Of a DNA stretch of 64,000 nt, positions 16,667 through 33,801 are shown in pieces. Made by a program: the position numbers and the translations under genes. Position 1 is the stretch's first letter. Every line of letters starts with the position of its first letter. Source of the DNA: Mortierella sp. BCC40632 (lineage: Eukaryota; Mortierellomycota; Mortierellomycetes; Mortierellales; Mortierellaceae); assembly GCA_011634665.1 (NCBI GenBank), contig WAEK01000020.1:508001-572000 (forward strand), written 5' to 3'. Under the pieces are notes generated by a model. That model was not told the origin of the DNA, did no database searches, and saw only the letters and a program-made list of their open reading frames with translations.

Positions 16667-17427
16667 ATGGCAACCCATCCAGATGGCGTGGAACAACCCA
16701 GCAACCAGGAACTTGTCGACGCCATGCAAGGCATTGATCAGGGAGGAAGCAACCACAGTACAGAGAACGGCTCCCCCCGCAGAGTGTAATATATTCTTGG
16801 CTCTATCCCACTCTTTTCTTTTTCCCCTTCAATTGAAAGTGTTCTCAGCACTTTTCTGGATATCTGGATCATTGACAGTTGGACTTGTACTTTCCTCTTT
16901 TATCCCTGCTTCATGATACACCAGGATGCCAGCCAAGGCAGCAACGCACGTCCATGTGGGAATGAGTGCCGACAGGATCAGGCCAACAGAAGACATTTTC
17001 AACCCTGAGGATCCACACATCCGCGAAGTAAGGACAGTTGCTTGTTCTTTGGACAGCTCTTTGAATCGCGACTGGAATTGCGAAGAGGATACCTTTTTTT
17101 TTTTTTTTTTTTTTTGTCATTAGTAACGCGGAACTATTATCTCTCTCTCTCACGGCATGTAGGATATTATCAGGATGATTATGCAGTACCTTTCAGAGGA
17201 AGGATACCACGCATCACAAATGACTATCCAAGACGAATCCAATGTCAAATGGCACGAACGTGAGGAAAATACCAATGATACCCGCAAACTCAAGAAGGCA
17301 ATACTAGGTTCGTCGAAACACACACTCAAACGTCATTACAATTTGGAAGACGCCCTCTCATGACTTGGAAGGACACGTACCATATTTATGAATGACCCCT
17401 GTTGAATTTGGCAGCTGATGTTTAACC

Positions 17428-17462
<35 letters not shown>

Positions 17463-19755
17463 TGGTGACTGGGCAGAGGTAGACAAGATTTGTTCAAAGC
17501 CTTTCTTCAAGAACCAAAAGAGCTTTTTGTTTGCGGTGTACAAGCAGCAGTACTTGGAGCATATTGAGCATCGCGAGATGCAAAAGGTAAAAGAGATATG
17601 AAAAAAAAAAAAAAAAAAAAAGAATGAGAGAAACAGGAAAGGGACAGTTGTAGAGTTTATCAACTATTCTTTTTTGTGGGTCTACTAACTGCTCGTACTC
17701 TTCCTCCTCCTCCTTCTCCTCCCTTTTCCTTCTTTCACACATACCTTTTCCGATTATAATGATCAATTTTTAGGCATTCACGTTTTTGCAAAAGCGACTA
17801 AAGCCACTAGAGCAACATCAGAGGACTCCTGTAGAATTTAAAGATCTATGCTATCTCTTGACCACAAAATCCATTCATGATGCGCCTTCGTTCAAGAACT
17901 GGGAAGGAATTGCACAGGGACGAGATCGACTTGTGGAGCAATTCCAGAGTATGCTCGAAGTAGAAAACTCTGTTCGCGATGGTATGTCACAGTGAACGAC
18001 GGCTCTTGGAGGAAGAAGAGGAGGAGAACCATTGTTGCTGCCATGGATCTGGTTTCTTATTTAGAGATGGACGGATCAATGATAGTCTTCTCACACTATA
18101 TGGTACCTTTGGATTGTTCAATTCTTTGTTTAGGCTCGGTCTATATTCCACCAAATCGTCTGTTGAGTTTGCTCCGACAGGCAGTCGCTTATCAGATTGA
18201 GGTTTCTCGATACCATCCTCGGATATCACCAACTGTCGACACACTTCTACAGGATTACACACCATTTGTGATTCCCAATGCAACGAAAACCATCATGCAA
18301 GGTCATCGTGGCAATGTCAAGTGTGCAGAATTTGTTGGAAACGAAGGTCGATCCATCGTGTCAGGATCAAGGTATAATCCCTTTCCCCCTCCACCACTCT
18401 TCACTCCATGTGGACACTCTTGAGCTCTTGATCTATATAACTATACATATGACGACTGATCTTCTTTCTTATTACTACGAATATAGTGACAACACGTTAC
18501 GAGTCTGGGATACAGAGACTGGAAACTGCATCCATATTCTGGAGGGACATTCTTCTCGTATCTGGGACGTGTCCTCAAACGAGGCAGGCACCACTATTGC
18601 TAGTGCCAGTGGAGATTCGACCGTCAAGATCTGGGATATTAAAGGGTCCAAGGCTTCGTGTCGAGCCACTCTGGGTGGCCATGCTGGCGATGTGTATACA
18701 GTCAAGTATCATCCAACAAGTGTATGTTGCGCCTTTCTCCCCCCCCCCCACTTCTTTCTTAATCATGTTGGCTCATCCAGTTGTTCATGGTACTCTGATA
18801 GTGTTGTTTAACAGCTCTTCCAATTCATGACATTCAACATAGAACCACATCGTTTCTGGTGGATACGACAAGATTGTTCGACTTCATGACTTGACAACAG
18901 GTCAAGTGGTCAAGACCTTTAGTGGACATCAACTGGCTGTTTCCAAGGTCATTCTCAACCCTGTTGGTAATCTGGTCGTGAGTGGATCCAAGGACAATAC
19001 CATCAAGTTTTGGGATCTTGTCTCGGGAGTGTGTATCAAGACGATTACATCGCATCTGGGTGAAGTCACCTCTGTTGCCATGAACTCGAATGGTACTTTT
19101 CTACTTAGCAGTTCCAAGGACAATTCAAACCGACTGTGGGACGTGCGCATGGTAAGTCATTTTTTTTCTCTATCACTCCTCTCCTCTTTCGCCCATTTTT
19201 GTGGGATAGAGATTGCCCTTTTTGCTTTTCTTTTCTTTTCTTTTTTTTTTCTTTTGCTCCTCCAAGCAAATTTTATTCTGACCATTTCTTTTCTCTCTCT
19301 CTCACGCGCATTCCGTATGGTTTTCAACAACAGACGCGTCCACTGAAAAAGCTCAAGGGACATCAAAACACGTCCAAGAATTTTATCCGAGCCGGATTTG
19401 CACACAACTCGTTGTTGGTGGGAGGATCTGAGGATGGTTTGATTTACATTTGGGATCAAGAATCGGGTGATATTATTCAAAAGCTGTATGGCCATGAGGC
19501 CATGGTCTACAATGCTGTCTGGTCTCCCAAACAGAGCATGTTTGTTAGTTCGAGTGATGACCGAACAGTCAGGACTTGGTACTACGATGGTAAGCGATCC
19601 AAACTTTTTTCTCTTTTTTGTGCTTCTTGTCAATTTGTATACACTTGTTGTTGATGATGATGGTCCTGACATGATTACTGATATCCATTGGAATTGTCTT
19701 TTATTTTAAAAAAAAAAAAAAAAAAAAATTTCCTCCAGAGAAACGCGTTCTGTAG
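16667..19755 (+). CDS. LisH/CTLH-WD40 repeat protein (WDR47/WDR26/SMU1-like architecture)
   Basis: Ten exons: 16667-16785, 16925-17027, 17163-17307, 17462-17586, 17774-17981, 18134-18371, 18487-18721, 18843-19151, 19334-19589 and 19739-19755, giving 584 aa with consistent phases. A LisH motif (DIIRMIMQYLSEEGYHAS) is followed by a CTLH-type helical region (LKKAILDGDWAEVDKIC; AFTFLQKRLKPL) and IPPNRLLSLLRQAVAYQ. Seven WD repeats then begin at MQGHRGNVKCAEFV and end ...DDRTVRTWYYD. The combination suits a dimeric scaffold. Candidates are WDR47-like proteins (the GHQNTSKNFIR segment resembles them), Gid7/WDR26 or SMU1; I cannot choose among them. The start sits in a good context (gcaccATGG). A second in-frame ATG at the beginning of exon 2 (16926) is an alternative start. 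Confidence 0.88.
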
Positions 19756-22056: not shown

Positions 22057-24115
22057 TCAAGCCTTTAGCTGCCGCTGTAGAAACTCTTCCACTCGGTTCA
22101 ACCTCTCCTCCTCCAACTCTTCGGGACTGGCGCTCACGACTATCATAGCATCAGTCGGCACTCGACAAATTTCACACCCATACATCTTCTGAACCACCTC
22201 CAAGACCTTGAAGCATTCATGACTGTGAATAAAGTTGACTGTCACTCCCAAACGACCAAACCGACCCGTACGCCCGATCCTGTGAATGTAAGCGACAGGA
22301 TCTGGACTTCCTGTTTCAGTCATTGGCAAGTCGTAGTTAACGACCAAGTTCACATTGGCAATGTCGATGCCTCGCGCGAGTACATTGGTTGATATTAGGA
22401 CCTTGGTCTTTCCTCCTCGAAATAGATCAATTTGTAAATCTCGTTCCTTTGGCCCGAGACCACCGTGGAGAAAGGAGATGGAGTGATGTTTTTCGCCGAG
22501 ATTTGAGCAAATCTTTTCTGCAATATCGCGTCTCTACATCGAGAGTTTTTCGTTGTAAAATGGAATGAAAAATAAGGGTACTGCCCTGATAGCAAAACTA
22601 GATTTTTTTTAAGAACGCATCCGAGGTAAGAACCCTACTCTTTTTCCACTCACCTTGACAAAGATGATACTCTGGCTGACAGTCATAAAGCCATAGAGAG
22701 CAGAGAGGTACTTGATCCGTTCCTCTTCGTTGTCGCAGTCAATATAAAATTGCTTAATGGTTTTGAGGGCAACATCGCTGATGCGCAGACTGATCTTGTT
22801 GCATGGACCATTCACAAACAGTTCCGCAAACTGAACTGTCTTCGCATCCCATGTGGCTGAGAATAGGACTACTTGCACATCGCTTGGCATCAAGCTACTC
22901 ACTCATATCCAAGAACTAAAGCATCAGTCTCGAGAAACACGATAAAGAGTGAAATGACATGAGGTTTCCTCTAGTCAGGATTCTGGTCAAGGTTCGAGTC
23001 GCTTCAGACTCCATGCTTACCGTCGTATCTGACGGCTGATCTGAATAAAGCTGGAGTGAACCTCAAGCATATGATCCGCTTCATCTAGGATAATCATCTT
23101 GATGGACGCCATCTTGGCCAGGTTGCGTTTCACGAGAAAATCGAGAGTTCCGGGAGTTCCGACAATGATCTGAGCAAGAGGGATGGAGCGAACCCCCCCT
23201 TCTGATGGAATGGCCTCAGAGACTGTTAGTCTTGGCAAGAACCGCCCAAACTCTCGGATCTCAGTCGAGATCTGTCTTGCCAATTCTCTGGTAGGCAAGA
23301 GTACGATCGCCTTTTTTTTTTTTATATAGTTGAAAGTGAATGCCAAAGAGAATTAGTTCCGCATCACTTCCTATCGCTTTTCGTGCCACCCTCTTTCCGA
23401 CTCTTACTCCTTTACTTCCAAAAGTAATAGTATTTATTATTAAGAGTTTCTCACCTGAGTCTTTGTATTGGACATGTCTAGTCGAGTGAGCATGGCGAGG
23501 ACAAAGGAGGCCGTTTTGCCTGTCCCTGATTGTGACTGAGCGATCAGATGCTGTGGGGGATTGCGCAATAAAAGAGGCACTGCAATCTGTTGGATCTGAG
23601 AGGGTCTTGTGAATTTTTTCATATACACTCCACGAAGGATCTCTTCATTGCTATTTCGTTGTTTGTGCAAAGGGAGCCAGCAAAGATTTAACCCCAATGC
23701 TCCGCCTCATATCATTCATGTACACAGCAAAAAGAAAACAAAGAAATAAAGAAATAAAGAAATAAAAATATAAAAATATAAAAAATAAAAATAAAAGTAG
23801 TCAGTGTTGACGAAGCGGTGAAAGGGGCAACTTACAAGTTCATGTCCTCAAAAGTGAGGATAGCCTTTGTGGGTGAATTCGGGTCTTGATACTCGACCTG
23901 GACCTGGTAGACGGACTGAGTGATATCCTCTTGTCCTGCGGGTTGAGTCTCTACTAACGAGCATAGTTAGCTCACTCTGCTTCATATATGCCTTTAGGCA
24001 TAGACTCGAGCAGACAGGCTTGAAGTCAAGTTGTGTAATTATGGCTAAAAGAAGAAAGGAAAGAGATGATACCTTGATATGACTCGGATAGTTTTCTTTG
24101 GGCCCCGCCTTCCAT
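22057..24115 (-). CDS. DBP5: DEAD-box ATP-dependent RNA helicase Dbp5 (DDX19)
   Basis: Exons in minus order are 24115-24073, 23953-23836, 23650-23455, 23310-23021, 22894-22654 and 22533-22057 (454 aa; yeast Dbp5 is 482). Motifs in order: FEDMNFNEEILRGVY and KFTRPSQIQ (Q motif), AQSQSGTGKT (Walker A), PTRELA, VGTPG, DEAD at the Walker B position, FSATWD (motif III), IIFVK, TNVLARGID (motif V) and HRIGRTGRFG (motif VI). The N-terminal helix region VQVEYQDPNSPTKAILTFEDMN is Dbp5-specific. Dbp5 remodels mRNPs at the cytoplasmic face of the nuclear pore with Gle1-IP6 and also helps translation termination. The first exon is short (14 codons), so the N-terminus is the least certain part. The intron before PTRELA ends in an A run rather than a pyrimidine tract. 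Confidence 0.93.
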
Positions 24116-24518
24116 GGTGAACGAAAAGCGTCTGCGTTGGGTGACCTGTCCTTCCCAAGAGAACGAGTCTAGATTGGTGATGCTACAATTACAGGGAGTA
24201 TTCCTTTTGCTTGGTCTTAACCAAGATTTTTTCGGGCACCAATGCAGGCGCTTTTTGAGGGGTGGCGAGAGCGAAGGGTGGCAAGAGTGGCGGCAAGAGT
24301 AAAAGAGAGCAAGAAACGAAGAAAAGGCGTCCAATCAAGGAAAAGTCTAAAAAAGCCTATTCTTCTTGTCACTTCTGATATCTCGAGCACGGGATTTCGT
24401 TTCTCTCACAAACTCACACACACACATTTTTTCGACCTTTTTTCTTTTCACTGTCTCGTTCTTCTCCTCTCCTGTATACCTTTGTTCTTACCTGGTTGAG
24501 AACTGAGGCATCAAGCAG
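24116..24518. other. Putative promoter region upstream of DBP5
   Basis: No convincing gene is visible. A minus frame extends DBP5 upstream in phase (including a SFSWEGQVTQRRR segment), so an alternative longer N-terminus is possible. Confidence 0.4.
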
Positions 24519-24945
24519 ATGCGCCACCAAAGCTATCTAACCTGGAAGGTGCTCCTCCCCACAACGACCATGCAGCCTACCTCTGTCCTTATTATTCTCC
24601 TCCTCCAGTCGCTGCAGCTGTTCTCGAATACAAAAGGATATCTCGTGAGTAATGGAGAATCAAGCAAAACAGAGAAAGGTTGTTCGAACAAAGTCGATCA
24701 GGTATTCAATAAAACAAAGAAAAGGCGCAATCGGAACTAGTTTGTTAGGATGAGATTCCGCTCCTTGGGTGATGGTGAGGCCTCGACTCAAAAGACAGCA
24801 ATGCACATAGTTTAATCTGATTATTTCTCTATTACCATGCCTTCTCCACCTTTCATTTCAGCACTCTATAGTTTACCAGGATCTCTCTGACATTCCTCAA
24901 TGCGTAGCGATGCTCCATGGTTACCAATGCTGCCCTTTGGTTTGA
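24519..24945 (+). CDS. Candidate small secreted Cys-containing peptide
   Basis: Two exons, 24519-24644 and 24862-24945, are joined in phase 0 by a consensus GTGAGT donor and a TTTCATTTCAG acceptor. They encode 69 residues (52 if translation starts at the ATG at 24570). The stretch QPTSVLIILLLQSLQLFSNTKG looks like a signal peptide. The short remainder contains IPQCVAMLHGYQCCPLV with three cysteines and ends at TGA. I find no family match from memory. Size, signal peptide and Cys content fit effector-like or pheromone-like small secreted proteins, but this rests on splice logic alone. A competing minus-strand exon overlaps part of exon 2. Confidence 0.33.
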
Positions 24946-25083
24946 TTTTCCAAGCGCCTGCAACTTATCTCTGGGGGTGAAGTATTCAAAGTAACCCGTT
25001 GGCTGGACAGAACTCTACATTTCCAGAGATCACTAAGGCTAAGGAAGTGAGAAAAGAACATTTATACAAAAAAAAAAAAAAAT

Positions 25084-25762
25084 CCTCCGCTACCTCGAGT
25101 CCCTGCTGCATCCAGCAGGAATCAAGGTAACGGAGGAAGAAAAAAAATGGGAGGGGGGGGGCTTCTTCTCTACCTCGAGTCCCTGCTGCGTGTAGCAGGA
25201 GTCAAGATAGAAAAAAAAAGTTCCTCCGCTACCTCGAGTCCCTGCCGCATCCAGCAGGAGTCAAGGTAACGGAGGAAAAAGGGCTTCTTCTCTACCTCGA
25301 GTCCCTGCTGCGTCCAGCAGGAGTCAAGGTAACAGAAGAAAAAAAAAAAAAAAAGAACACCCGAGTAACCCTTCTCCGCCCAGACTCTCAAACGCGCCCG
25401 GAAGAGGTCCAGATGGCAGAAGTAAAAGAACAAAAAAAAAATTCCTCCGTTACCTCGAGTCCCTGCGGCGTCCAGCAGGAGTCAAGGTAACGGAGGAAGA
25501 AAAGAAAGAAAAAAAAAAAAAAAAAGAAAAAGAAAAGAAGAAAGAAAAGGATTTTCTTTTACCTCGAGTCCCTGCTGCGTCCAGCAGGAGTCAAGGTAAC
25601 AGAAAAAAAAGAAAGAAAGGACACCCTGAGCAACCTTTCTCCGCCCAGACTCCTCAAACGCGCCCGGAAGAGGTCCAGATGGCAGAAGTAAAAAGAAAAA
25701 AAAAATCCCTCCGTTACCCTCGAGTCCCTGCCGCATCCAGCAGGAGTCAAGGTAACGGAGGG
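25084..25762. repeat. Seven copies of a nested palindromic (hairpin) repeat
   Basis: Copies lie at about 25084-25136, 25164-25210, 25223-25275, 25284-25340, 25443-25497, 25553-25605 and 25707-25762. Each has an outer arm (CCTCCGTTACC / GGTAACGGAGG in the best copy) and an inner stem CCTGCTG / CAGCAGG closing a 4-6 nt loop. Copies are separated by A-rich linkers. A second conserved segment of about 65-70 nt (starting ACACCC, containing TTCTCCGCCCAGACTC) occurs twice, at about 25360-25425 and 25620-25690, so the block contains a higher-order duplication. No transposase or long terminal inverted repeat is visible. A degenerate eighth copy lies near 25776-25816. Confidence 0.85.
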
Positions 25763-26080
25763 AAAAAAAAAAAAAAAACCTCAAGTTCCAAGCAAGAATC
25801 CAGCAAGGAGTCAAGCTGAAATCTGAATCAAAATCCGGAAAGGTCCAGAAAAAAGAAAAGAAGCAAAAAGAAATTAAAAAAAAAAAAAATCTCTGATTCT
25901 GGTCAGGGCAACAACAGGGGTCAAAGGGAGCAAAAGCCTTGAGGGTCTTGTAAAAAGTCCAGCTGCTGAGCAATGCATAGTACAAAAGACAAATTCAATG
26001 GTGAATGGATCATTCTCAGCTGAACTTGGTCTTCATGTTAACTTTTTTTTTTGGGAAGATTTGGAGGAAGGGAAGCTTAC

Positions 26081-28361
26081 CGAACGAATCCCTCGCTCAC
26101 AATCAACCTAAAAAAAGAAAGTCTTGCGGCCTTGAGGAGTCTTGGCTAGTGTACAGCGCATAGCACAAAAGGAAGATGCTATGGTGAGCAGACAATTCTC
26201 AAAGGAACTTTGAGCCTTTGCTTTCTTTGTGGATGAGAAAGGAGAAGAGAATCTTACCAGAGTTTCTTGCTCATAGTCAACCTAAATGAAAGAAGGAAAT
26301 CTTGCGGTCTTGAGGAGTCTTGGCTAGTGCACAGCACATAGAAACAGTGTGGTGAGCGGACTACTCTCAAAGGAACTTTGAGCCTTTGCTTTCTTTGTGG
26401 ATGAGAAAGGAGAAGAGAATCTTACCAGAGTTTCTTGCTCATAGTCAACCTAAATGAAAGAAGGAAATCTTGCGGTCTTGAGGAGTCTTGGCTAGTGCAC
26501 AGCACATAGAAACAGTGTGGTGAGCGGACTACTCTCAAAGGAACTTTGAGCCTTTGCTTTCTTTTGTGGATGAGAAAGGAGAAGAGAATCTTACCAGAGT
26601 TTCTTGCTCATAGTCAACCTAAATGAAAGAAAAGGAAATCTTGCGGTCTTGAGGAGTCTTGGCTAGTGCACAGCACATAGAAACAGTGTGGTGAGCGGAC
26701 TACTCTCAAAGGAACTTTGAGCCTTTGCTTTCTTTGTGGATGAGAAAGGAGAAGAGAATCTTACCAGAGTTTCTTGCTCATAGTCAACCTAAATGAAAGA
26801 AGGAAATCTTGCGGTCTTGAGGAGTCTTGGCTAGTGCACAGCACATAGAAACAGTGTGGTGAGCGGACTACTCTCAAAGGAACTTTGAGCCTTTGCTTTC
26901 TTTGTGGATGAGAAAGGAGAAGAGAATCTTACCAGAGTTTCTTGCTCATAGTCAACCTAAATGAAAGAAGGAAATCTTGCGGTCTTGAGGAGTCTTGGCT
27001 AGTGCACAGCACATAGAAACAGTGTGGTGAGCGGACTACTCTCAAAGGAACTTTGAGCCTTTGCTTTCTTTGTGGATGAGAAAGGAGAAGAGAATCTTAC
27101 CAGAGTTTCTTGCTCATAGTCAACCTAAATGAAAGAAGGAAATCTTGCGGTCTTGAGGAGTCTTGGCTAGTGCACAGCACATAGCACAAATGGTAGATGC
27201 TATAGTGAGCGGGCTACTCTCAGAGGAACTTTGGATCTTTTGCTTTCTTTGTGGATGAGGAAGGAGAAGAGAACCTTACCAGAATCTCTTGCTCGTAGTC
27301 AACCTAAATGAAAGAAGGAAATCCTGAGGCCTTGAGGAGTCTTGGCTAATGTATATAACATAGCACAAAAGATAGATGCTATGGTGAGCGGACTTCTCTC
27401 AAAAGAACTTTGGACCTTTTGCTTTCTTCGTGGATGAAGTAGAAGAGTGTCCTACCAGCTGAGTCTCTTGCTCGTAGTCAACCTAGAAGAGAAAAGGAAG
27501 TCTTGCGGTCTTGAGGAGTCTTGGCTAGTGCACAGCACATAACACAAAAGGTAGATACTATAGTGAGTGGGCTACTCTCAGAGGAACTTTGGACCTTTTG
27601 CTTTCTTCGTGGATGAAGTAGAAGAGTGTCTTACCAGCTGAGTCTCTTGCTCGTAGTCAACCTAGAAGAGAAAAGGAAGTCTTGCGGTCTTGAGGAGTCT
27701 TGGCTAGTGCACAGCACATAACACAAAAAGGTAGATACTATAGTGAGTGGGCTACTCTCAGAGGAACTTTGGACCTTTTTGCTTTCTTCGTGGATGAAGT
27801 AGAAGAGTGTCTTACCAGCTGAGTCTCTTGCTCGTAGTCAACCTAGAAGAGAAAAGGAAGTCTTGCGGTCTTGAGGAGTCTTGGCTAGTGCACAGCACAT
27901 AACACAAAAGGTAGATACTATAGTGAGTGGGCTACTCTCAGAGGAACTTTGGACCTTTTGCTTTCTTCGTGGATGAAGTAGAAGAGTGTCTTACCAGCTG
28001 AGTCTCTTGCTCGTAGTCAACCTAAATGAAAGAAGGAAGTCCTGAGGCCTTGAAGAGTCTTGGCTGCTGTGCAAAAAAAAAAAAAAAAAAGGCAAATGTA
28101 ACGGTGAATGAACCATTCTTGGAAGGACCTTGCGCGTAGCTTACATTAAAACGAGTCTTTCGCGGACAGACAACCTAAAAGAAATAAAGTCAAACAACCT
28201 AGAAGTCTTGAAGTCTTGCGGAGTCCTGGCTGCGCGTAAAAAAAAAAAAAAAAGTCAGAAGTGAACTGATGAGCAAACTATTCTCAAAAGGACCCCAGGC
28301 TTTATTTTTTTTTCTTTTCAACTCACCACCACGACAGAGGTGTCGCTCGCTCGCAATCAAC
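26081..28361 (-). repeat. Tandem array of 168-181 bp units, each carrying a micro-exon-like block
   Basis: Repeat junctions (CTTGCGGTCTTGAGG box) fall at 26123, 26301, 26469, 26640, 26808, 26976, 27144, 27324, 27502, 27681, 27862 and 28041. Units from 26301 to 27144 are almost identical and 168-171 bp long; those from 27324 to 28041 are 178-181 bp and form a second subfamily. On the minus strand each unit holds a block flanked by a TTTAG or CCTAG acceptor and a GTAAG donor. Block positions are 26081-26107, 26258-26281, 26426-26449, 26595-26618, 26765-26788, 26933-26956, 27101-27124, 27280-27303, 27456-27482, 27635-27661, 27816-27842, 27995-28021, 28145-28174 and 28327-28361. Sizes are 27, 24 (seven copies), 27 (four copies), 30 and 35 nt. 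The common blocks read VDYEQETL or VDYEQETQL. Gene start and end are not established. Confidence 0.9.
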
Positions 28362-28370
28362 CTAGTTGAG

Positions 28371-29339
28371 TGAAGGGGGGAAGAGTGAAGAGAAGAGAAC
28401 TGTTTTGGGGGCAAAAAAAAAAAAGACTAAGTATTTCATGTGAACGTGTGGTTTTGCCTTTTGCCACCGCCAAAGAAAATAATTGGCAGCCAAAATGGAG
28501 GGGGAGAGTAATGAGGTAAAGAGAAGACTCTCTAGGTTGGGGGGGGAGGGAGGAGAAGGGAGGAGGAGGAGAGGAGAAGAGGAGGACGGTTGGATAGAGA
28601 AGACTAGATTCGTTATGGCTCTCGGTGCAGTCAATGGGGAAAAACGATGGAGGAACTCGTTGCAAAAAAAAGGTTTGCCCGCTCTCTGGGCTTCCTTCTC
28701 CTTCTCACATTTTTTTTTTTTTTTTGACGCGACGCGACGGTTTGTCTCTTTTTTTTCTATTTTCCTACGCATCACGACAATCTAGACAAAAGAAAAAAAA
28801 GGCGTTTGTGCAAAGTGTGCATGTGCGCGAGAAAGCGACAGTGGCGTCTACTACATAAACATCTCTTTTGGTAACCCCCAAGTCTTTTTTTCAAGATTTT
28901 CCCACATCATCACACACACACACACACACACACCAAAGTTCTCAAGGGTTGTCCCCTGTTTCGTTCATCTCAGATGATTTTTTTTTTTTTAATTTTTTTT
29001 TTTTTTAAAAAAATAAAAGTATATGAAAAAAAAGAGGAGAGATAGGTGGAAGGAATATACAGCAACAGGGGAGATGAGGATGAGGATGAAAAGGATGAAG
29101 AAGGATGAGTGGGACAGACAAAAAAAAAACTCGAAAAAAAAAACATAAGGAGATACACAGACAAAAACTACCATAAAGACAAAAAAAAAAAAATAAAAAA
29201 AGAGAGATCGTGTAAAATGGGAAGAATTCGTCATGAAGGATAAAGGAATAAAAAAAAAAAAATAAAAAAAAGCGGAAGCATTGACGTCGAGTCGCAACTT
29301 TCAACTAAAAAAAAATAAAATGATCTATGAATCCAAGTT

Positions 29340-29370
<31 letters not shown>

Positions 29371-29385
29371 CACTTTTCCCAAATC
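28371..29385. other. Spacer upstream of the repeat array, downstream of the Zn2Cys6 gene
   Basis: It holds GA-rich, CA-repeat (28912-28933) and A/T homopolymer tracts. A minus-strand ATG at 28769 begins a Lys/Arg-rich frame that could be the first exon of the micro-exon gene, but no good donor follows. I see no confident gene. Confidence 0.5.
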
Positions 29386-31392
29386 TTACATCCAGAGAGA
29401 TCCACTGAACTGACCCTCACTGACAACAGTTCCTTCCTGGACTGGATGCTGAAGCTGAGCTGGGTTCATGGTTCCATTGTGAACAGCTCCCTCTCCTCCA
29501 AAGTCCACCCAAAATCGTGTAGGGTCATATTCAAATCCTTCCGCGGCCGTGGTCGTAGTGGCCGCGGTCGTCATGCCATTGCCATGGTTCATGGCTTCCT
29601 GGGCCATCATCTTGTGCTGAGCCTCCATCGACATCGAGGTCATGGTCATGGGCATATTGGCATGCAAGTGTTGTTGCTGTTGTGCGCTTTGCTGGTTCTG
29701 TTGTTGTTGTTGTTGAAGCATCTGCATGGCATATCGATGGCTAGGAATAACAGGTGCGGCAGTCATGTTCAAGGCAGATTGTTGCTGAAGAAGCGAGATA
29801 TTGGCATCCTGATCCTTCATTTCCATCTCAAGCTGCTGGCGCTGTTGCTGGCGCTGAAGCTGTTGTCTCAAGAGAGCCTGCTGCTGCTGTTGTTGTTGCT
29901 CCAACAAACCATCTCCCTTGCCCGTGTCTACAACCTTGTTCAAGATACTTGGTCCGAACGTCTGCATTTGTTGGTAGAGGCGGTGCTGCTGCTGGATCTT
30001 GAGCTGTTGCTGCTTCTGTTGCTCCTTGAGGTCGACAATGATCTGTTGCTGCTGCGTAGCCTGTGGACCAAAGCCATAAGGAGTCTGAGGGGTCATTGCG
30101 CGACCAGACATCACATCCGTAGGAGTGGCGGGCATCATTGACAGGGTTGTGGGCGTGATGGCTGTAGGTGGAATGCCCATGGTGCTGGGCTGGAAAGCGC
30201 CGTTGGAGACGATAGTCTGCGCAGCGGCGGCAGTAGCCATGATGCTCATGTCTGTCTGAGAGACAATCGTCTCAAGCTGGCGCTTCTTGCGCGTAGGTTG
30301 ACCATCTGTCTGTTCTTGCTGCAAGAATTGATCCTGACCCTCGCTTATCTCGCGGCCGGCCTCTTCTTCTGCGGCAGCCTTGATGGTTGTGCTCAAGAAC
30401 TGCTCAAGAATCTAGAGGATGAAGGTAAAAGAGAAGGAAGAGGAGGAAAAAAAAAAAAAAAAAAAGTTCTCGTCAGTCATGTTTCTCAAGGTACCTTGGC
30501 CCATGCACCTGATCATGGTCTCTTTCTCTTGGTTGGATTGAGAAAGAGAGAAAGCATGACCAGTGAACGGTTATTGGATCAAAACAAGACATCAAGGGTT
30601 CAGTAGAGCACGTTGTGCGAGGTCCCAGTCACTGATTCGCTAGTCCATCTTGTGTGTGTTTGCGTCGTGCGTGTTTTCTTTACCTTAATGCCTTCGGCAA
30701 CCCCGCCAGAATACGAAGAAAGATCGAGGAACGTCTCCAGGACACGAACCGTGCGACGGTAATAATCCATGGCCACCTGCGAGCCTCGCTTGTCATAGAC
30801 GGCATTCATCGCATGGATCACTCCTGCCTGCAGAAGTGCATAGAGAGCGAACCGGTTGACGACATACGAGCAGTGCTCCAGGTCCATGCCCTGAGCAATA
30901 TCCGTGATTGCTCGACCGGATCCCGTACAGATCGTGTTGGATTGAGCGGCGGCGGGCGATCCGGCGGCGCCAACAATATAAGGACGATGCAAAAGGATCA
31001 AAGTCGTATTATATACAATATAAAGATAGGCTGGGTACATTTCACCAGCCTCCTTGACCATCATGGCCGCCTGGGCCATCTCAGTGGGCATCGAGCCCAG
31101 GGGTGAGCGACGTGGAGATGCAGGGGAGCCACGACGAGCACCATGAGGATTCTGCCAGCGCATTTCTGGAGTCAGGTTGCTGAGCCAAGAAGTAAGCGAG
31201 CCCTCAATGTACGAGACCATCGAATCATGTCCGCCAAATTGTGGAGGCAGCGATTGGGTCGAGTACGAGTGTTGGAGCACACTACCAAGAATCTAGAGCG
31301 GCGAAAAAAGGAAAGCAAAGGCCGTTTGGCCCCGATGGAAGGAGATTAGTTGGAGGAGCACGCGCGCACAAAGAGCGAGAGAGTGAGAGAGA

Positions 31393-31449
<57 letters not shown>

Positions 31450-33740
31450 CAAGTACATCTGCCTACAAAGACAGTTGTCAGGGCGAGTGAATGAAGAGAG
31501 GATATTTACCTTGACAAGTCGGACCATGGAAACAAAACCTCGGAGGTCCTGGTCTGCCGAGGTCTGGTCCTCTGGCAGTTCGACATCGGTCTCTTTGCTG
31601 TGCATCAATAAGCCCAGACCGAGCCAGGCCGAGAATTGATGGTCCTAAGAATGAGGTCACGTTACAGCGGAGAGAGAGAAGAAGAGAGAAGAGAGAAAAG
31701 GGGGCGAGGTTAGAGTTGTGTGAGCCAGACAGGCCAATGACGCCGAGTCTGCGGTGATAGTGATGAAAGAGCAATAACGCCAATAAGCAATAATAAAAAA
31801 AAAAAAGGACCCCCCCGCCCGTTCAGATGGTAGATGGCCATTGCCACGAGGCAACCACCGCCACCCCAACCATGCTTCGAATTAATAAAAAAAAAAAATA
31901 AAATAGAAAAAAAAAATATGTCTACAGCAACAACAACACCCTCTCTCTCCCCTAACCCCCAATCCTCTCATCCCATCTGTCCAACGGAAGAACAAAAGCG
32001 CGTAAACACCGAGGCTGTCCAAAAAAGGGCAACGACCAGGGCTCTCTCACCCATGAACCAAGGTCCATCTCCCTCCTTCCCTCATCCCTTCCCCTGAGCA
32101 CCCATGCACGATAACAGACGGCAAACCTAACAAGAGCACACAACAGCTACCGCGGGAAGTGGGAAATGAACCAACTGAAGACCCAAGGGAATGAAAACAC
32201 AACCTAGATCAAACATATTTTTTGAACTCTTTTCTCTCTCTCTCTCTTTTCGTCCTAGCCCTGCCCTTACCAGGATAAACATGGACCACCACAGGCAGCG
32301 GAGACCGTCCACAGCCACACCGGGGATAGACTCGGGATCACGGTGGAGTCCGAGTTCGTGGGCCATTCGAATGGCAAGTGAGAGATAACCGCTGCTACGA
32401 GTCGCTTTCCATTGACCCTGGTGGTGGAATTGTGACATCAGACAGAGGGCCTGGACAGTACTGACGCGCGGAACGTCCAAAAAGTCGTCCATGAGCAATC
32501 GTGCTGCATCAAAGAAGCCCTGGCTCAACGCTGAAGCGCGTTGTCGCATCTCGGGCGTCGTCTTGGACACTGCTGGGATCTTGGCCGCAATCGCAAGGAG
32601 CGCATTGAGAAGTAGGGGCGAAAGAGGTGCCACGGGGTCCTGAGGATGCTCCTTGTGAGCCTCTGCATCCTGTGGCTGGATCGGCCGGTTCTTGGCCGGG
32701 ATAGAGGCCGCAGATGAGGGGCAGAGCGGACAAATCTCTTGCTGCCACTGCTTCATAAACGTACCCTTGTGGACAATGGGAAGAAAGGTGTTGAACTCTT
32801 CAAAGTACGACTCGAGCAACTGGAGAGTCTGCTCTGTCGAGAGTGAGAGTGGGAAGGAGCGTGCAAGCATGGGCAGAGGCGGTTCCAGACTCTGGGCAGA
32901 GAACTGGAGGTGGTTACGACCATACTGTCGTGATTGCTCGGGTGTGAGCCAGGGGAAAGGGACGGTGGTCCGGACAGAGGTCGAGCCCAGTTTGTCGAAC
33001 ATCATAGTCAAGGCTGCAATGTCTGCAGAGCCCGATGGGTCCTGTTGAGCGGCAAGGTGAGGTGGGAGATTGTCGTGCGAGAAGGGGAAGAGCGAGGTCA
33101 ACGAACGGTTGCGAGAGACGAGTGGACGCATGGGAGACATGGCCACAGAACCGGCGCGCATGCTACGGGGGTTGGACGAAGGGGTGCTGGAGCGCGCAGC
33201 AGGGCGAAGTGCAGGTGTGCCTGGAGGTTGTTGCTTCACCTCGACAAGAGAAGAGTGGACACTGGCGCCATCGTCCAGGTCATCCAAATCATCTTCGTCT
33301 CGGCCATCCTCCAGGTCAGAGCCGGGGTCGTTGAAGCTGCTAGCGCCGTTGGTGGATTTTGTAGGATAGTGTGCTGGAGCCGAGGAAGTAGACTCTGTTT
33401 TAACGGTAGCGGAGGAGGAGGAGGAGGAAGGGATGACGGCCTTTTTCTTTTTGACGATACCGGCGAGCATGTTTTCGATTTTGCCGAGTCGGTCTTCAAT
33501 GACTTCGACATAGCCCTTGGGTGGGCCACGCTTTGTGTTGCTGGTGGTGTAGACGCATTGAGTCTTTGCGGCCTTGCAGCCGCCGCAGCCCTCGGGCACG
33601 CCGTCGCACTTTACTCGTCGCCGACGACAGTTGTCGCAGGCTTTTGTGATCTTTGAGCGCTTCTGGGTAGCGCTGGATGAGCCCGAGGCGCCGTTCCCAT
33701 TGCTGCTGTTGAAATCCAGCAGCATAGGAGAGTTGAACAT
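29386..33740 (-). CDS. Fungal Zn2Cys6 transcription factor with poly-Gln C-terminus
   Basis: Exons in minus order are 33740-32271, 31644-31510, 31292-30684 and 30411-29386 (1079 aa). The binuclear zinc cluster CDNCRRRRVKCDGVPEGCGG plus CKAAKTQC has all six cysteines at residues about 34-61. It is followed by KRGPPKGYVEVIEDRLGKIENML, the linker and dimerisation coil seen in many Gal4-family proteins. The middle region (LLESYFEEFNTFLPIVHKGTF ... AIRMAHELGLHRDPESI ... LRCLWWSMFILD) is the fungal-specific regulatory domain. The C-terminal exon is rich in Gln, Met and Thr, with several Q runs suggestive of an activation domain. It should be nuclear and bind CGG-type elements; target genes cannot be read from this window. 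Introns carry a GA microsatellite. The ATG at 33738-33740 follows directly on a (GA)n leader. Confidence 0.92.
31381..31449. repeat. (GA)n microsatellite in an intron of the Zn2Cys6 gene
   Basis: An almost pure GA repeat with a few interruptions lies inside the intron between exons 2 and 3. Confidence 0.9.
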
Positions 33741-33801
33741 TGTGAATGTGTGTATATGTGTGTGTGCGCTTTTGTGTATGTGTATGTGTGCGTGTGCTCA
33801 A

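Follow-up and report, generated by a model that had tools for sequence, protein, structure and literature searches.

Tandem candidate exon–intron cassettes with paired acceptor sites on the minus strand of a Mortierella contig

Introduction

In the Schistosoma mansoni 10-3 antigen gene (MEG-4), tandemly repeated exons encode 81-base repeats, and schistosome micro-exon genes at large mostly carry signal peptides, give rise to exon-skipped isoforms that have been sequenced, and form gene families (both as described in PMC4015677). The locus considered here, an array of 14 candidate exon–intron cassettes in the fungus Mortierella sp. BCC40632, would share with MEG-4 the tandem copies of one short exon and its intron within one gene, and with the micro-exon genes the short exons, mostly of a length divisible by three. 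There are also differences: MEG-4 is expressed and coding, whereas the cassette array belongs to another lineage, is known from DNA alone and has yielded neither start exon nor homologue, nor were the signal peptide and the gene family of the micro-exon genes found for it. For a fungus, a regulated micro-exon in the Trichoderma virens transcription factor Xlr2 has been demonstrated with RNA data (PMC11121469). The proposal of a very short fungal exon is common to both cases; in contrast to the array, Xlr2 involves a regulated transcription-factor exon supported by RNA data, and the available portion of that report describes no array. Among the literature matches listed, none concerned a fungal tandem exon array, which may still exist in print.

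Two further kinds of gene resemble the array in outline. Dscam-type arrays consist of mutually exclusive exons governed by docking–selector base pairing, and SNORD116-type snoRNA host genes contain repeated non-coding exons with a snoRNA in each intron. The former are likewise tandem arrays of related exons, from which the present one differs in its near-identical inner exons; the latter likewise repeat a small exon together with its intron in tandem. Docking–selector pairing was not supported, as nothing stood out in a crude scan of six of the 14 introns, where the best intron–downstream duplexes reached about −29 to −33.5 kcal/mol against −24.5 to −29.2 kcal/mol for the means of five crude shuffles. 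A snoRNA host gene was rejected: the ten Rfam matches within 24000–29500 all fell below the cut-off, none was repeated in the array, and no C/D box pair occurred at 25901–28450, the H/ACA type being covered by the Rfam comparison.

Results

The window, that is, the whole stretch of DNA analysed, comprises 64,000 nt of the forward strand of contig WAEK01000020.1 (positions 508,001–572,000; assembly GCA_011634665.1), and whole-genome searches covered 49.9 Mb in 62 contigs. The array sits in intergenic DNA that abounds in simple repeats, between a Zn2Cys6 transcription factor gene to its right and a helicase gene to its left. The Zn2Cys6 gene lies on the minus strand, has its Pfam domains within 32127–33797 and extends, by our reading, from about 33740 to 29386; among the matches listed, the closest to its protein comes from Mortierella sp. 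AD094, at 69% identity, followed by Linnemannia elongata at 67% and, lower down, other Mortierellaceae, in keeping with a member of this family. The helicase gene (minus strand, about 24115 to 22057) carries a Pfam Helicase_C domain and is read by us as a diverged, Dbp5-like helicase with a six-exon chain that is open when joined. Farther left, a WD40-repeat gene at 17000–19590 (plus strand) has seven introns within the stretch read and is likewise open when joined. A C/T-rich stretch at 28400–28600, upstream of the array on the minus strand, may by eye represent a promoter region.

A first-pass annotation had described 14 minus-strand blocks, each starting with GTTG directly after TAG and ending before a splice donor. 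All 14 were recovered at their places, from 28361 down to 26081, with lengths of 35, 30, 27 (four times), 24 (seven times) and again 27 nt, and all begin with GTTG after TAG. The donors agreed for 12 GTAAG and one GTGAG (U1), and one GTAGG had been overlooked (U6, block 27456–27482). Thirteen of the 14 block lengths are multiples of three and thus symmetric. One exon–intron cassette would have been amplified in tandem on this strand, at an inner spacing of 168–181 nt; units U8–U12 are near-identical, which indicates that the copy number changed recently. Each unit contains a branch-point-like YTCAY and two candidate acceptors, a YAG and then TAG/GTTG, together with a single donor (GTRAG in 13 units, GTAGG in one). 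The donor would close the exon and the two acceptors would yield a long form of 65–85 nt, mostly 66 or 69 nt, or a short form of 24–35 nt.

Candidate long-form exons lie on the minus strand at 28327–28399 (U1, 73 nt from CAG, block 28327–28361, donor GTGAGT), 28145–28229 (U2, 85 nt, block 28145–28174, a T16 tract before CAG, donor GTAAGC) and 27995–28063 (U3, 69 nt, block 27995–28021, a T18 tract before CAG). They are followed by three further exons of 69 nt at 27816–27884 (U4), 27635–27703 (U5) and 27456–27524 (U6, donor GTAGGA), by four of 66 nt at 27280–27345 (U7), 27101–27166 (U8), 26933–26998 (U9) and 26765–26830 (U10), by U11 (26595–26662, 68 nt), by two of 66 nt at 26426–26491 (U12) and 26258–26323 (U13), and by U14 (26081–26145, 65 nt, block 26081–26107, donor GTAAGC). 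Ten of these 14 lengths are multiples of three. A decayed half unit, U15 (25880–26015, minus strand), retains TTCAC, a CTTTT tract and CAGCAG and has neither TAG/GTTG nor GTRAG. U2 contains two TAG/GTTG sites 24 nt apart (28145–28198, minus strand), and U11 together with its following intron differs from its near-identical neighbours in run lengths, by two extra T and one extra A, either naturally or through an assembly error.

The candidate exon thus recurs with donor and acceptors in register in 14 direct tandem units, as a tandem exon duplication would. A DNA search of the organism's own genome matched this locus alone, so that no other copy of the array and no gene family of the schistosome type was found there. 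A 19-nt pattern searched genome-wide with up to three mismatches had 13 exact sites within the array, and its counts outside resembled those of a control (49 and 62 versus 70 and 50). A dispersed repeat was rejected, neither the array nor the hairpins described below having another clear genomic copy; weak matches elsewhere fell mostly in T/C- or A-rich parts, and one of them (C6, 72% identity) overlaps one hairpin.

The lack of another genomic copy, the decayed edges of the tandem array, its simple-repeat-rich intergenic setting and the failure to find a start exon would also suit an untranscribed minisatellite that grew from a stretch with splice-like sites, present by chance or as the relic of an exon. 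Such sites do occur elsewhere: in the rest of the window, a comparable block (pyrimidine-rich TAG, 20–35 nt, GTRAG, either strand) was found in 13 of 1,531 overlapping 230-nt stretches, and in 58 of the 1,531 under looser rules. We nevertheless regard a minisatellite as rather unlikely, on account of two features of the diverged units: the signal columns are kept above the rest, and a donor-like site on the opposite strand is lost.

The first-pass annotation had seen selection in the outer units, which were said to have lost most similarity outside the block and the splice sites. The part concerning the block did not hold up. Compared with the inner unit U8, U1, U2 and U14 have a mean identity of 0.60 over the block, 0.66 over the part upstream and 0.61 over the intron, the corresponding values relative to U5 are 0.67, 0.66 and 0.57, and U14 retains 31 of 34 aligned bases in one upstream flank segment. 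Whole-block conservation was accordingly rejected as a sign of selection, since it is roughly the same as that of the remaining unit. Type A and type B units show differences at 2 of 24 sites in the block and at 19 of 141 in the intron, proportions that are not clearly distinct. Retention of the splice sites, on the other hand, was borne out: CTCAC, YAG/CC, TAG/GT and GTAAG are jointly kept in U1, U2 and U14 at 0.90 (versus U5) and 0.88 (versus U9), compared with 0.61 and 0.62 elsewhere. For these four signals, which were picked after looking and are informed by three outer units only, random placement of four 5-mers equalled the observed conservation in 26 (U5) and 40 (U9) of 20,000 draws, and circular shifts did so in 0 of 179 (U5) and 2 of 167 (U9). 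TAGGTTG is the longest run common to all three outer units, the next-longest being CTTTT and TCAC in comparison with U5 and merely 3-mers in comparison with U8. Letter by letter, TAG/GT is kept in 15 of 15 outer-unit cells; the YAG trinucleotide is kept in five of nine, U2 and the U1 flank reading CAG or being unalignable. On the plus strand, a single GTGAG is present in introns 3–13, whereas introns 1, 2 and 14 have GTGAA or ATGAG in its place, which supports the minus strand as that of the exon-like cassettes. By these sequence comparisons, the splice signals look constrained.

Which acceptor is used was judged against 15 reference introns from three neighbouring genes with open joined exons, including the seven of the WD40-repeat gene. 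They measure 115–626 nt; 13 end in TAG, seven begin with GTRAG, and 12 have a YTNAY site 12–60 nt before the acceptor. The first-pass annotation had joined the blocks at TAG/GTTG into micro-exons of 24–35 nt, and several observations favour that size: all 13 introns so defined (123–155 nt) fall within the reference range, 14–16 of the 19 nt before the acceptor are pyrimidines, TAG/GT is intact in every outer cell, nearly all block lengths are symmetric, and a 2-nt insertion in U11, located before TAG/GTTG, would be harmless. Against it, a YTNAY site 12–60 nt before this TAG is present in two units and missing from 12, a deficit shared by three of the 15 reference introns. The other candidate acceptor, the YAG farther upstream, lies 42 nt from TAG/GTTG in ten of the 14 units, where both forms would consequently be in frame, and 38 (U1), 55 (U2), 44 (U11) and 38 nt (U14) from it in the others. 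A YTNAY site is found 26–42 nt before it in all 14 units, the inner copies of which are not independent, and T runs of 12, 16 and 18 nt precede it in U1, U2 and U3 (at most 5 nt in the others), with 11–16 pyrimidines in the preceding 19 nt. Its 13 introns (81–113 nt), however, are shorter than every reference intron, and for this reason the long exon is not ranked likelier. Intron length, tract strength and strict conservation thus point to an exon of about 25 nt, branch-point distance and the codon-position bias described below to one of about 67 nt, and both acceptors may be used. Micro-exons joined at TAG/GTTG as the sole form, with or without a protein, appear unlikely.

The coding potential of the short form bears on the same reading. 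Two of the three block frames are open in every unit, as had been claimed, with the exception that the frame reading VDYEQETL meets a TGA in U1; it also lacks an ATG. The other open frame runs uninterrupted through all 14 joined blocks, in favour of micro-exons, while the U1 frame homologous to that of the other units fails to chain to U2. Codon scores of the blocks lie between −1.3 and 3.4 bits for the VDYEQETL frame and between −0.5 and 1.8 bits for the other; as a pointer to a coding chain they were set aside, no chain being singled out. With E up to 10 as the limit, shortened models of both frames had no homologue in sets of 48 and 477 candidates. Together with the TGA in U1, the missing ATG and the lack of a start exon for the long U1, this leaves the suggestion of a variable protein of the schistosome type unsupported.

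In the long form, a frame reading QDSSRPQDF…, with 22–23 residues per 66/69-nt exon, stays open in all units from U1 to U10 and can be chained over U1, U2 and U3, as it would if the upstream YAG served a gene for a repeat protein. Among U3–U13, the exon's first 42 nt hold nine variable sites, seven of which fall at one codon position (p 0.008, one frame), and the most periodic 42-nt windows begin 3–5 nt earlier (8 of 10, p 0.003); owing to a 3-nt insertion, this alignment is unreliable past the block. By our reading the first five variable sites are synonymous, and three of them are common to U3 and U7. Such a gene is nonetheless very unlikely: the frame is broken by the insertion in U11 and by the length of U14, where it also meets a stop, all three variable sites of the exon's final 24 nt alter residues, no Pfam match and no other copy in the own genome were found, the introns are too short for this genome, and among ATG exons with a listed donor at 29380–28400 none of the four candidates can be spliced to the long U1 in phase 0. 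The product may be a non-coding RNA, towards which we lean. Downstream of the array, a 38-codon open stretch at 24856–24969 (minus strand) is a possible exon with neither a Pfam match nor another genomic copy, and a second open stretch, QLQRLEEENNKDR, lies near 24.6 kb; as exons both are unproven, and longer models that include them have no homologue.

On the 3′ side of the cassettes, seven tandem 25-bp hairpins occupy 25069–25775 (minus strand). No hairpin was found elsewhere in the genome at up to three mismatches. When the seven copies are aligned, pairing holds in 95.4% of the 175 cells, and seven of the 25 pairs show two-sided changes. None of 500 shuffles, which do not keep the relatedness of the copies, matched either value, 87 of 500 had as many additional pair types, and alignments that were slid gave 33–58% paired cells and one to three two-sided pairs. 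The non-Watson–Crick cells include 26 that would be G–U on the minus strand, 14 of which represent two positions common to all copies, three that would be G–U on the plus strand, and five that are neither. For every copy, the minus-strand RNA gives the more stable fold (−30.0 to −45.1 kcal/mol, compared with −26.1 to −37.3 kcal/mol for the plus strand). These biases agree with transcription of the minus strand and could also be produced by strand-biased mutation. Between the hairpins, another stretch is present in two copies that are 94% alike (25387–25439 and 25653–25705), part of which matches, by eye, the cassettes' AGACTCCTCAA in inverted orientation.

Discussion

The anatomy, copy number and signal conservation of the cassettes are features of the DNA itself; that the cassettes are transcribed and spliced is what we infer from them. 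A lineage-specific spliced transcript of the minus strand, containing a tandemly amplified exon–intron cassette, has in our judgement about an even chance of being the correct explanation. Such a transcript might also include the hairpins. With its TTCAC, tract and CAGCAG and no donor, U15 fits a terminal exon, the start of which it possibly represents. An extended version, in which one RNA gene consists of two modules, the 14 two-acceptor cassettes and then a terminal exon with the seven hairpins, would produce a ladder of RNAs and hairpins that may be cut to small RNAs; it is very unlikely as a whole. Were it true, copy number and acceptor choice would determine the RNA ladder, and the hairpins could yield near-identical small RNAs.

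The locus also calls for caution in annotation, as a short block flanked by TAG and GTAAG does not by these flanks reveal the size of an exon. If spliced, the array would constitute an example, in a fungus, of tandem exon amplification on a massive scale. It would also be a natural test of the choices made by a fungal spliceosome, which would be presented with 14 nearly identical exons bearing paired acceptors, with branch-point distance and intron length favouring different sites.
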